NCBI GenBank assembly: GCA_025922875.1
Contig: JAICGZ010000028.1
Span: 1-33,230 of the forward strand
DNA: 33,230 bases
Direction of reading: 5' to 3'
Source: Pyrinomonadaceae bacterium
GTDB taxonomy: Bacteria; Acidobacteriota; Blastocatellia; Pyrinomonadales; Pyrinomonadaceae
Part shown: piece by piece, positions 1,352 through 26,825 of the stretch
How the letters are laid out: the number at the start of each line of letters is the position of its first letter
How positions within the stretch are numbered: the stretch's first letter is position 1
The notes under the pieces: generated by a model
The model's database searches: none
What the model saw: only the letters and a program-made list of their open reading frames with translations
What the model was told of the DNA's origin: nothing
Program-made: the position numbers and the translations under genes

Positions 1352-1447
1352 CGTCTCCCTGGAGTGCGGCGGCCTGGAGCCGCTTTGGCCACGATCAGGC
1401 GTAATCTATAACAAAGCGGCGCCAGGCCGCCGCACTCCAGGGAGACG
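1352..1447. repeat. Near-perfect palindromic element, family 1 copy 1
   Basis: Two 36-base arms (1352-1387 and 1412-1447) are inverted copies with one mismatch. They enclose a 24-base loop (1388-1411). The arms contain GGAGTGCGGCGGCCTGG. The same structure with a related loop occurs at 25544-25643, so this is a dispersed element and not a one-off terminator. It lies between the oppF stop and the start of the next gene, and on the minus strand it could also end opp transcription. Confidence 0.9.
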
Positions 1448-3576: not shown

Positions 3577-3658
3577 AGTCATTTTTACAGGATTGGCCGG
3601 ATGAAACATGATTTACATGTCAATCCTGATAAATCATGTCAATCCTGTAAAAATGACT
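3577..3658. repeat. Nested inverted repeat between oppC and oppD (family 3)
   Basis: The outer arms 3577-3594 and 3641-3658 are perfect 18-base inverted copies containing TTTTTACAGGATT. An inner pair, ACATGATTTA and TAAATCATGT (3606-3615, 3630-3639), is also perfect. The element begins 2 bases beyond the oppC stop, and its distal arm contains a possible oppD ATG. In the oppC-oppD mRNA it would fold into a strong hairpin, so it may reduce expression of the two ATPases relative to the permeases. It is related to 23448-23507. Confidence 0.85.
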
Positions 3659-13015: not shown

Positions 13016-13085
13016 TTTCCCGCAAAGGCGCAAAGGTGCAAAGAAAAGAGTTTGCTTCTTTGCACCTTTGCGCCTTTGCGGGAAA
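13016..13085. repeat. Perfect 30-bp inverted repeat, family 2
   Basis: Arms 13016-13045 and 13056-13085 are exact inverted copies built of CGCAAAGGCGCAAAGGTGC units around a 10-base loop. It lies between the ompA-family stop and the kinase gene. It would form a very stable hairpin in the minus-strand transcript and could end or damp transcription into the kinase. Confidence 0.92.
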
Positions 13086-19356: not shown

Positions 19357-19617
19357 ATGGTAGAAGGAGCAACCCGAGTGGCTACAACGACTGAGATAGT
19401 TGAAGGTGAAATGGAAGGAAGTGCCGGGCAGGAAGTTGATTCAAAATACCGTCTGATAATCCTCGCCGCGAAGCGCAGCAAACAGCTACAGCGCGGCGCA
19501 CAGCCCCGAATTGAGATCGATCCGCAAAAACACAAGCCCACGCGTATCGCGCTGGAGGAAGTGATGCGCGGCCGCGTGCACTTTGAAATCAAAGAAGAAG
19601 ACGGGAACACGGATTAG
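19357..19617 (+). CDS. rpoZ: RNA polymerase omega subunit
   Basis: This is a small 86-residue subunit that helps assemble the beta-prime subunit. The conserved core SKYRLIILAAKRSKQLQRGA is followed by KPTRIALEEVMRGRVHFEI, matching omega proteins in other phyla. The first 25 residues, acidic and low in complexity, are outside the conserved core. An internal start is possible but no better site is visible. It is last in yicC-gmk-rpoZ. The 3' end overlaps the first bases of an inverted repeat, and the last codons (NTD and stop) are part of it. Confidence 0.93.
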   Translation: MVEGATRVATTTEIVEGEMEGSAGQEVDSKYRLIILAAKRSKQLQRGAQPRIEIDPQKHKPTRIALEEVMRGRVHFEIKEEDGNTD

Positions 19618-19671
19618 ACGGATCTTTTAAAGAGATCTGCGCTGATCTGAAAAAAATCCGTGTAATCCGTG
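19608..19671. repeat. Family 4 inverted repeat, probable bidirectional terminator between rpoZ and ETF-QO
   Basis: CACGGATTAGACGGAT (19608-19623) pairs with ATCCGTGTAATCCGTG (19656-19671) with one mismatch. The loop holds a run of A at 19650-19656. Genes on both sides converge on it. The stop codons of both genes lie in or beside the arms. Confidence 0.8.
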
Positions 19672-21413: not shown

Positions 21414-23465
21414 ATGGCAAACCATCTTATTCACGAAACCAGCCCTTATCTATTGCAACATGCTCATAATCCAGTCGATTGGTACCCGTGGGGCGAGGAG
21501 GCCTTTGAAAAGGCGCGGCGCGAGAACAAACCCGTCCTGCTCAGCATCGGTTATTCGGCGTGTCACTGGTGTCACGTGATGGCGCATGAATCGTTTGAAG
21601 ACGAACAGATCGCGGAACTGATGAATGAGTACTTCGTGAATATCAAAGTCGATCGTGAAGAGCGACCCGATCTGGATCAGATCTACATGAATGCCGTGCA
21701 GATGATGACTCATCACGGCGGTTGGCCCATGACGGTGTTCCTCACTCCCGAAGCAGTTCCCTTTTACGGCGGCACATACTATCCGCCTCAGGACCGCTAC
21801 AACATGCCGGGGTTTCCTCGCGTCTTGATCAGCGTCGCTGAAGCATATCGAGACCGGCAGGATGATATTCGCGAGACAGGCGCGTCGCTCGTCAATGAGC
21901 TCCAGCGACTCAGCGCACCCAGCGGCTCCGATAATCCGATCGAAGTCGAATTACTTGATCGGGCTTATACCAGCATCGTCAGAAGTTACGACCCGGTACA
22001 CGGCGGTTTCGGCGGCGCGCCGAAATTTCCACCCGCAATGACGCTGGAGTTTTTGCTTCGCACATACGTTCGCACCGGCAATCGCGAGGTACTCGAGATC
22101 GTGGGCAATACGTGTCAAAAAATGGCGAACGGCGGCATCTACGATCAACTGGGCGGCGGCTTTCATCGTTACTCCACCGATGCCAGGTGGCTCGTCCCTC
22201 ACTTCGAAAAGATGCTGTACGACAATGCCCTGCTCTCGCGACTCTACCTTCACTACTTTCAACTAAGCCAGAATCAATCCGCACGCAACACGGTCGAAGG
22301 CATTCTCGATTACGTTCTGCGTGAGATGACTGATCCCGCAGGTGGTTTTTACTCGACGCAGGACGCTGACTCGGAAGGTCATGAAGGAAAGTTTTTCGTC
22401 TGGGACATCAAAGAGATTCAAACGGCCCTCGGCGAGACTGCTGCTGCCCGGTTCTGCGATTACTACAACGTCACCGAGTCAGGAAACTTCGAAGGCAAAA
22501 ACATCCCGAATGTAACGCGCTCGCTTGAAGACGTTGCGGTAGCACACAACATTACTGTTTCCGAACTGGCAGCATCGCTAAACGAAAGCAAGCGCATACT
22601 GTTTGAACTCCGTGAGTCTCGAATCAAACCCGATCGCGATGAAAAAATACTCACCGCGTGGAATGGTCTGATGCTCGCGAGTTTTGCTGAAGCTGGAGTT
22701 ATTCTAAACCGGCCCGATTACACGGACGCCGCCCGGCGAAACGCGGAGTTTGTGCTTGCGAATTTGCGGCGTCATGGGGTCCCGCTTCGCACTTGGAAAG
22801 GCGGCATTGCCAAGTTCAACGGCTATCTCGAAGACTATGCGTTTCTGATCGAGGGACTCGTCACCTTGTTTGAAACTACGGGCGAGTATCGCTGGCTTGA
22901 AGAAGCGCGGGCATTGACGGATCGGATGATCGAAGAATTTTGGGACAACGATAACAAGGGCTTTTTCTTTACCGGCAAGAGTCACGAAAACCTGATCGTG
23001 CGTTCAAAAGACTACTTTGATAACGCGACGCCGTCCGGGAATTCTGTTGCCGCCATGGTGCTCTTGCGTCTTGCAATTCTTACCGGTGATGAAAACTATC
23101 GCGAGATTGCGACCGCGACTCTTCGTGAAGTCAGTGACTCGATTCGCCGCTATCCTTCGGCGTTCGGATACGCACTCTCCGCGGCTGACTTCCTGCTCTC
23201 GACGCCTAAAGAAGTCGCGATCGTCGGGAATAACGCGGCGGACATACGTCCCCTTCTCGAGGAGACCTGGCGAACGTACTTGCCAAATAAGGTTGTCGCT
23301 CCGGGTTTCGACGGCGCTCAGCCCATCCCACTCCTCGAAAACCGCCCATTGCTCAACGGCCAGCCGACCGCATACGTGTGCGAACATTACACGTGCAAAC
23401 AGCCGGTAAATGAGCCATCCGCCCTGGCCGCTCAACTCGCGATTGGGCAGGATTTACACGATTGA
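21414..23465 (+). CDS. YyaL-type thioredoxin-fold/six-hairpin protein (DUF255, SPATA20 family)
   Basis: The start at 21414 gives the family's usual opening, [18 protein letters not shown]. An in-frame longer version runs through the adjacent repeat into the ETF-QO gene and is not credible. The first 165 residues are a thioredoxin-like domain with the CxxC-type motif [14 protein letters not shown], then [10 protein letters not shown] and [11 protein letters not shown]. The rest (about 190-680) is an alpha/alpha toroid resembling glycosyl-hydrolase-like six-hairpin domains, with [10 protein letters not shown] and [14 protein letters not shown]. At 683 residues the length is normal. The function is not established; redox or sugar-related roles have been proposed for relatives. 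The last codons (GQDLHD) lie in a repeat arm. Confidence 0.9.
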
Positions 23466-23507
23466 ACAACATTTACATGTAAATCCTGTTTAAGCTTGTA
23501 AATCCTG
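23448..23507. repeat. Family 3 repeat overlapping the YyaL stop
   Basis: CAGGATTTACA begins at 23448, inside the coding end. It faces two inverted copies of GTAAATCCTG (23479-23488 and 23498-23507), with ACATTTACATGTAAAT in the middle. It resembles the oppC-oppD element. It could act as a terminator for the YyaL gene, although no U tract is present. Confidence 0.75.
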
Positions 23508-25535: not shown

Positions 25536-25543
25536 GAGATTTG

Positions 25544-25643
25544 AGCGCCTCCTTGGAGTGCGGCGGCCTGGCGCCGCTTTGTTTCCGATCTTGCGTTATC
25601 GAGACCAAGGCGGCGCCAGGCCGCCACACTCCAAGGAGGCGCT
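25544..25643. repeat. Near-perfect palindromic element, family 1 copy 2
   Basis: Arms 25544-25581 and 25606-25643 (38 bases) differ at two positions and enclose a 24-base loop, the same size as in the copy at 1352-1447. The loops share CGATCnnGCGTnATC. It fills the spacer between the HD-GYP gene and the pdhA promoter and may end transcription of the former. Confidence 0.92.
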
Positions 25644-25646
25644 CTT

Positions 25647-25675
25647 TTGCCCGCGCGGCTGCCGTCGCTTATAAT
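25647..25675 (+). promoter_or_regulatory. Sigma-70 promoter for pdhA, near-leaderless
   Basis: TTGCCC (25647-25652) and a perfect TATAAT (25670-25675) are separated by 17 bases. Transcription would begin near 25682, only about 4 bases before the ATG at 25686, so the mRNA has almost no leader. The -35 box starts 4 bases after the palindrome ends. Confidence 0.7.
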
Positions 25676-25685
25676 CCGTCCCTTC

Positions 25686-26825
25686 ATGAGCAAACAAACA
25701 GCAGCGCCACCTTCTGCCGCTAAAGCCGAAGAGCAACAAAGCTCTACCGGCGCCGGCGTGATGGATGCACCCACAGACGTTGATCAAGAACAACTCAAAC
25801 GCGAAAGAGACACCGCAAAGGAACAACAGAAAGATCGGCTCGCTGGACTTAGCCCCGATCACCTGATCGAACTCTACCGGCAAATGCTCTTGATTCGTCG
25901 CTTCGAAGAGAAGTCGGCGGAAGTTTACGTTGCCGGCAAGATCGGCGGGTTTTGTCACCTCTACATCGGCCAGGAAGCAGTGGGCGTTGGCGCGATCGCT
26001 GCCCTTCGAAAAGACGACTACGTCCTTGCAAGCTATCGCGAACACGGCCTGGCGCTGGCAAAAGGAATGTCAGCGAGATCGATCATGGCTGAGTTATTCG
26101 GCAAGGTCACTGGATGCTCCAGGGGCAAAGGCGGCTCGATGCACATGTTCGACAAGGAACTCGGTTTTCTTGGCGGTCACGCGATCGTTGGCGGTCAGAT
26201 TCCACTCGCGACAGGAACAGCTTTCGCCTCGAAGTATCAAGGGACCGATCAAGTGACGCTCTGTTTCTTCGGCGAAGCCGCAGTCAACCAGGGCGCATTC
26301 CATGAATCGCTGAACATGGCCCAGCTTTGGAAGCTCCCGTGCATCTACATCTGTGAAAACAACCAGTACGGCATGGGCACATCCTTGGCCCGCGCAATGT
26401 CTCTGCGCGACATCGCACAAAAAGCCTGCGCGTATGAGATGGCCGCGGAGTTTGTCGATGGCATGGACGTGCTCGCCGTTCGCGAAGCGACGATGCGCGC
26501 GGTGGAACGTGCTCGCAAAGACTACCTGCCGACGCTACTGGAGATTCGCACTTACCGTTTCATGGGCCATTCGATGTCGGACCCGGGAAACTATCGCACG
26601 CGCGCCGAAATCGAGAAGTATCAGGAACGCGATCCGATCAAGCTCTTCTCCGCTAGTTTGCTCGAAGAAAAGGTCGTCGATGAGAAGGCCCTAGAAGAGA
26701 TTGATCGCAAAGTGCGTGAAGAGGTTGAAGACTCGTTGCGTTTTGCCGAAGAGAGTCCTGTCCCCGATCCGGAAGAACTCTACACCAACGTTTACGCCAA
26801 TCCCATCGATCCCAGCCGGAAGTAG
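25686..26825 (+). CDS. pdhA: Pyruvate dehydrogenase E1 component, alpha subunit
   Basis: This is the thiamine-diphosphate-binding half of the E1 decarboxylase that feeds acetyl groups to E2. The ATG at 25686 is preferred because the promoter lies just upstream of it. Residues 1-50 are a polar, low-complexity tail not usual in short PdhA proteins. Then LLIRRFEEKSAEVYV and GFCHLYIGQEAVGVG are typical of PDH, not branched-chain, E1 alpha. GSMHMFDKELGFLGGHAIVGG contacts substrate and cofactor. The cofactor motif runs from GEAAVNQGAF (196 on) to ENN at 224-226, with Glu in place of the usual Asp of GDG. The phosphorylation-loop region YRFMGHSMSDPGNYRT is present. It is followed by pdhB after 9 bases. 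Confidence 0.92.
   Translation: MSKQTAAPPSAAKAEEQQSSTGAGVMDAPTDVDQEQLKRERDTAKEQQKDRLAGLSPDHLIELYRQMLLIRRFEEKSAEVYVAGKIGGFCHLYIGQEAVGVGAIAALRKDDYVLASYREHGLALAKGMSARSIMAELFGKVTGCSRGKGGSMHMFDKELGFLGGHAIVGGQIPLATGTAFASKYQGTDQVTLCFFGEAAVNQGAFHESLNMAQLWKLPCIYICENNQYGMGTSLARAMSLRDIAQKACAYEMAAEFVDGMDVLAVREATMRAVERARKDYLPTLLEIRTYRFMGHSMSDPGNYRTRAEIEKYQERDPIKLFSASLLEEKVVDEKALEEIDRKVREEVEDSLRFAEESPVPDPEELYTNVYANPIDPSRK

Follow-up and report, generated by a model that had tools for sequence, protein, structure and literature searches.

The locus examined here raises the question of what kind of element is represented by two near-perfect palindromes of about 100 bases lying far apart in a single window. 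The window is the whole of a 33,230-nucleotide contig (C28) from the 6.8-Mb, 542-contig genome of a member of the Blastocatellia (Acidobacteriota), designated G000. An initial annotation read the pair, together with the loop that they share, as a functional RNA or as a mobile element recognised by a protein, and not as a simple terminator. Both palindromes were recovered by a mechanical inverted-repeat search. Copy 1 has 36-nt arms (1352-1387 and 1412-1447) that are 97% complementary and 24 nt apart, and copy 2 has 47-nt arms (25543-25589 and 25598-25644) that are 89% complementary; the 36/38 arms and 24-nt loop first described at copy 2 are the outer part of this same hairpin. Folded as single-stranded DNA, copies 1 and 2 lay 10.8 and 14.0 standard deviations, respectively, below dinucleotide shuffles, and equally stable shuffles numbered 0/200.

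Analysis of the arms revealed that each has the layout 5'-TGGAGT-GCGGCG-loop-CGCCGC-TTTG (consensus arm, CGCCTCC[C/T]TGGAGTGCGGCGGCCTGGCGCCGCTTTG). In the single-REP fold, the arm forms a six-pair GCGGCG/CGCCGC stem with the GGAG foot one base before it and GGAGT outside. The arm thus has the form of a REP, an imperfect palindrome with a 5' tetranucleotide at its foot, and the tetranucleotide is GGAG in the window, in its copies and in the RAYT-flanking REPs described below, not GT[AG]G. Because each arm is itself a REP and the two are inverted across a short spacer in one ~96-nt hairpin, the palindrome is very probably a REPIN (an inverted REP doublet), that is, a small, non-autonomous mobile hairpin element. 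Its features are collected in Table 1.

Table 1. Coordinates of the two REPIN copies and their parts in the window
Feature	Position	Strand	Description
REPIN copy 1	1352..1447	.	Near-palindrome including conserved outer CTCC...GGAG; covariance-model match 1352-1447, both strands
Left REP, copy 1	1360..1387	+	TGGAGT + GCGGCG/CGCCGC-type hairpin + TTTG; stem GCGGCGgcctggAGCCGC, one mismatch; single-REP fold
Spacer/loop, copy 1	1388..1411	+	GCCACGATCAGGCGTAATCTATAA
Right REP (inverted), copy 1	1412..1439	-	
REPIN copy 2	25544..25643	.	Between GGDEF/HD-GYP-type gene (stop 25535) and pyruvate-dehydrogenase E1-alpha-like gene
Left REP, copy 2	25554..25581	+	TGGAGTGCGGCGGCCTGGCGCCGCTTTG (consensus)
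Spacer/loop, copy 2	25582..25605	+	TTTCCGATCTTGCGTTATCGAGAC
Right REP (inverted), copy 2	25606..25633	-	

The two window copies are not the full extent of the family. A DNA similarity search of G000 gave 80 strand-wise matches at about 40 places, the arm 13-mer matched 80+77 times compared with 13+9 for a reversed control, and 34 copies were used to build a covariance model, which gave 71 strand-wise matches, corresponding to about 36 full copies. A further ~30 copies are cut by contig ends, as expected because the repeat breaks the assembly. The search of relatives that the initial annotation had proposed, carried out with the same model, also found dozens of copies in the same-genus genomes G004, G007 and G013 (56, 64 and 68 strand-wise matches, respectively). 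Forms with an internal deletion, in which the outer stem alone is retained, were seen at L033, L056, L079, L084 and L096, and fragments also occur. The copies are mostly intergenic: by crude ORF calling, 15 of 26 scored copies lay clear of every ORF of 110 aa or longer, and in several of the 11 that overlapped one, the start seems to have been predicted too far upstream. At one locus (L047, about 1493-1588; G000:C12:21205-21300), a REPIN lies in frame within a 690-aa ORF, between the halves of an ArsA-like ATPase (ArsA assigned by eye).

Bases in the arms are strongly conserved as far as position -5 (CTCC) and weakly to about -13, and no conservation is left past -16. Arms of one copy match each other above the expectation for different copies (30/35 versus 18 expected at -1; 20 versus 12 expected at -7), a pattern that can come from selection but also from arm-to-arm repair.

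It is very unlikely that the element is a bidirectional terminator or mRNA-stabilising hairpin under selection, with mobility secondary. Many copies do lie just past a stop codon, mostly between codirectional genes, and the REP ends in a TTTGTT-like sequence. However, a T4 run was present outside the hairpin in only 9/70 flanks (3/68 in the control), so that there is no general terminator signature, and copy number in the covariance-model search ranges from none to dozens among species of one genus. On this point, the initial annotation was right to set a simple terminator aside. Copy 2, which lies upstream of a promoter-like TATAAT of the pyruvate-dehydrogenase E1-alpha-like gene, bears on the same question. 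More distant relatives carry a terminator-like hairpin and T-run in the orthologous gap, but in the three nearest relatives, whose left flank is 76 to 82% identical, the REPIN is absent and the gap holds other sequence, some of it repetitive. Copy 2 is therefore mobile or was lost in three close relatives, and the gap has the look of a recurrent landing site. Orthologues of window positions 25536-25690 (L340, L341 and L342) differ among close relatives in their repetitive and palindromic content.

A short, palindromic, multicopy element that lacks coding capacity might also be a MITE, a deletion derivative of a DDE-transposase IS with terminal inverted repeats and target duplications. The target-site check suggested at the outset revealed no duplication reaching 4 bp, whichever of the tested boundary offsets was used; this is the outcome that Y1 transposition predicts and that DDE elements do not. 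Moreover, the arms have internal REP structure and adjoin Y1 transposases in relatives, and we regard a MITE as slightly less probable still than a terminator.

The least probable reading is a structured noncoding RNA family with a functional loop: the hairpin is stable and the two window copies have CGATCnnGCGTnATC in common in their loops (CGATCAGGCGTAATC; CGATCTTGCGTTATC), but an Rfam search gave no covariance-model match at gathering score, the loops differ in G013, a related genome with many copies, and both strands of the copies match the model nearly equally well. Across the family, the spacer is mostly 22 to 26 nt with a small CGATC...GATCG stem, and the loop is only loosely kept; the shared loop of the window copies thus reflects their recent common descent. 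The loop motif first noted is real, then, while the case for a loop function is weakened by the G013 loops. The functional-RNA half of the original proposal is unsupported: different genomes share little of the loop, and recognition as folded ssDNA accounts for the structure.

The REPIN reading directs attention to a partner transposase, and the search for a REP-associated transposase that had been called for located one RAYT clade in relatives. A search with NF047646 identified a (broken) RAYT gene with GGAG REPs to either side in the same-genus genomes G008 and G001, and a homologue search of 294 genomes identified 19 Acidobacteriota RAYT loci of this type. Exact TGGAGTGC was found within 900 bp at 18/19 of these and as an inverted flanking pair at 16/19. 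Two Verrucomicrobiota RAYT loci also carry an inverted TGGAGTGC pair (2/2); they were found through their REPs and are not independent of the association count. In total, the exact inverted pair was present at 18/21 clade loci compared with 0/40 other RAYT loci (Fisher p 1e-12). The GGAG-REP-flanked RAYTs form one clade in the tree (support 98/94). Three of four tested score above the cut-off of NF047646, the NCBI REP-transposase model, and the clade proteins retain the H-Y-H and Y..NP motifs and match the solved TnpA-REP structure 4er8 (phmmer, E 7e-5). Relatives thus have RAYTs that lie between two inverted family REPs, of subtypes related to that of the window; no RAYT flanked by exactly the window subtype (GGCCTGGC centre) was found in the genomes examined. 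The REP that flanks the RAYT of G013 (GCGCTGAC type) is unlike that genome's abundant REPIN, and the clade RAYT there contains a stop. Tandem 19-nt GGAGTGCGGCGGCTCTTTT units adjoin a clade RAYT at L201 1369-1464 (G048:C29). Together with the copy number, the REP-type arms and the absence at the orthologous site, the link to one RAYT clade supports the proposal of a mobile element recognised by a protein.

No clade RAYT was found by homologue search in G000, G004, G010 or G007. G000 comprises 542 contigs with many copies at contig ends, and its gene may truly have been lost or may fall in an assembly gap, since the repeats break contigs. Its REPIN copies are either orphans after RAYT loss, which has been reported for E. 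coli strains (PMC3733652), or the RAYT gene lies in the unassembled part. Loss and assembly gaps are likewise the two candidate reasons why REPIN-rich genomes (G000, G004 and G007) mostly show no clade RAYT. The sole RAYT of G000 (C139), which falls outside the clade in the tree, was considered as the REPIN partner and rejected, as its flanks hold a different repeat and no GGAG REP. At L060 985-1340 and 2022-2555, this gene has as its neighbours other REP-like repeats, GGCGGGGC..GCCCCGCC and GGGCTATGCCCC, together with an array of ~20-nt CGGCTCTGCCGCCGGATGTTA units.

Evidence for covariation of the stem comes from the related REPs, because the arms within G000 are nearly invariant (3/21 pairs changed on both sides). 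Among RAYT-flanking REPs, 134/170 stem cells were paired, compared with a mean of 94 and a maximum of 111 in 2000 shuffles; the inner stem pairs switch among GC, CG, TA and AT with pairing kept. The foot and first two stem pairs are constant, partly by way of collection: TGGAGTGC was required for inclusion, and the constancy of the tag rests on the 18/21 versus 0/40 locus comparison. The refuting condition set by the annotation, a lone pair of copies devoid of covariation, does not hold: copies are many and the related REPs covary.

These data suggest that the window palindrome is probably moved by a single-strand-DNA transposase. When the locus is single stranded (for example, as lagging-strand template), each REP would fold, and a Y1 (HUH) transposase of the RAYT family would bind the REP hairpins with their GGAG guides. 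A nick would then be made near the conserved pyrimidine stretch outside GGAG (CTCC in G000), the position being the predicted cut site. By single-strand transposition, the doublet could be excised or copied to new intergenic sites without target duplication, and the RAYT would act in trans on the non-autonomous REPIN, G000 being a genome with no detected clade RAYT. In the TnpA-REP model, A and G at guide positions 3 and 4 choose a CT cut (PMC8266576). GGAG has A and G at the same positions, and CT is present in the CTCC outside the element; by analogy, GGAG may be the guide tetranucleotide, with a putative cut at CT.

G000 also contains a second palindrome, AGTAGTGGGTCAGTTTGAATTGTGC ... GCACAATTCAAACTGACCCACTACT, which occurs with a REPIN at its centre and, about as often, without one (L103, L109, L110, L114-L117, L119, L121 and L124); several of the empty ones are centred on CTCC-NN-GGAG. 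This palindrome is either a long ancestral form, a favoured target or the scar that excision leaves. The outer extension TAGTGGGTCAGTTTGAATTGTGC was rejected as part of the element, as conservation is nil beyond ~16 bases and the extension occurs also without a REPIN; it is treated here as a separate repeat. Elsewhere in the window, a perfect 30-base inverted repeat with a 10-base loop (TTTCCCGCAAAGGCGCAAAGGTGCAAAGAA; 13016-13085) is unrelated to the REPIN and is perhaps another dispersed family, and near-palindromes of ATCCTGTAAAT- and ATCCGTGTAATCCGTG-like sequence lie at 3577-3658, 19608-19671 and 23448-23507.

To assess the wider distribution, about 85,000 genomes were searched for exact TGGAGTGCGGCGRCNNGNCGCCGCTTTG, which yielded at least 114 stretches. 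The matches listed represent Acidobacteriota, Planctomycetota, Verrucomicrobiota with Kiritimatiellae and Lentisphaerae, Armatimonadota, Methylomirabilota, Fermentibacteria, Sumerlaeota, Chloroflexota, Chlamydiae and Proteobacteria, at least about ten phyla in all; these taxa are record labels, mostly of MAGs, among which single contaminant contigs are possible. An inverted partner lay within 150 bp of 57/125 REP matches listed, compared with 0/89 in the control. Across phyla, again among the matches listed, the CTCC outside the REP is not kept, and only a T two bases before TGGAG is.

Described RAYT-linked REPs carry a GT[AG]G tetranucleotide (PMC6006769), and the REPINs of Pseudomonas fluorescens SBW25 are inverted REP doublets with a spacer (PMC3116915). 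Like the SBW25 elements, those described here form one long hairpin, are dispersed and mainly extragenic, show compensatory changes and are tied to a RAYT type; unlike them, they carry GGAG in place of GT[AG]G, belong to another phylum and RAYT clade, and have a cognate RAYT unseen in G000 (PMC3116915). With the E. coli REP/BIME and TnpA-REP system they share a guide tetranucleotide 5' of a GC-rich hairpin and an HUH/Y1 transposase between inverted REPs, but the guide is GGAG, the HUH motif is HYH and no stem bulge is shown here (PMC8266576). The TIRYT/TIRtron elements of Acidobacteria similarly have Y1 transposases flanked by inverted repeats, some of them repeated genome-wide; their flanks are described as TIRs, and it is by this description that they are set apart from the REPs with a constant GGAG foot found here (PMC3733652). 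REP dimers inside a longer palindrome recall the GTAG-15 dimers in target palindromes of Anabaena variabilis, although here the outer palindrome also occurs REPIN-free in the same genome (PMC3733652). A search of mostly open-access literature found no paper joining GGAG, RAYT and extragenic palindromes. Its architecture and the association with RAYTs in relatives make the element a REPIN, though not one built of canonical GT[AG]G REPs; what sets it apart within this known kind is the GGAG tag, matched to one RAYT clade. More tentatively, and with rather less than even confidence, we propose that GGAG REPs and their RAYT clade could form a separate class of single-strand mobile DNA, distinct in guide specificity and spread horizontally through many phyla, and that in this lineage REPINs may enter or leave the CTCC-NN-GGAG centre of the second palindrome, leaving empty copies.

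Definitions of REP/RAYT systems have so far leaned largely on GT[AG]G tags and on Proteobacteria. With its change at the second base, its occurrence in about ten phyla among the matches listed and its link to one RAYT clade, the GGAG tag offers a natural test of the model in which the guide sets the cut site. The GGAG REPIN also explains a common repeat of Acidobacteriota and the PVC group that breaks assemblies and creates spurious small ORFs, and it provides a clear presence/absence system in which to follow the fate of REPINs after RAYT loss.
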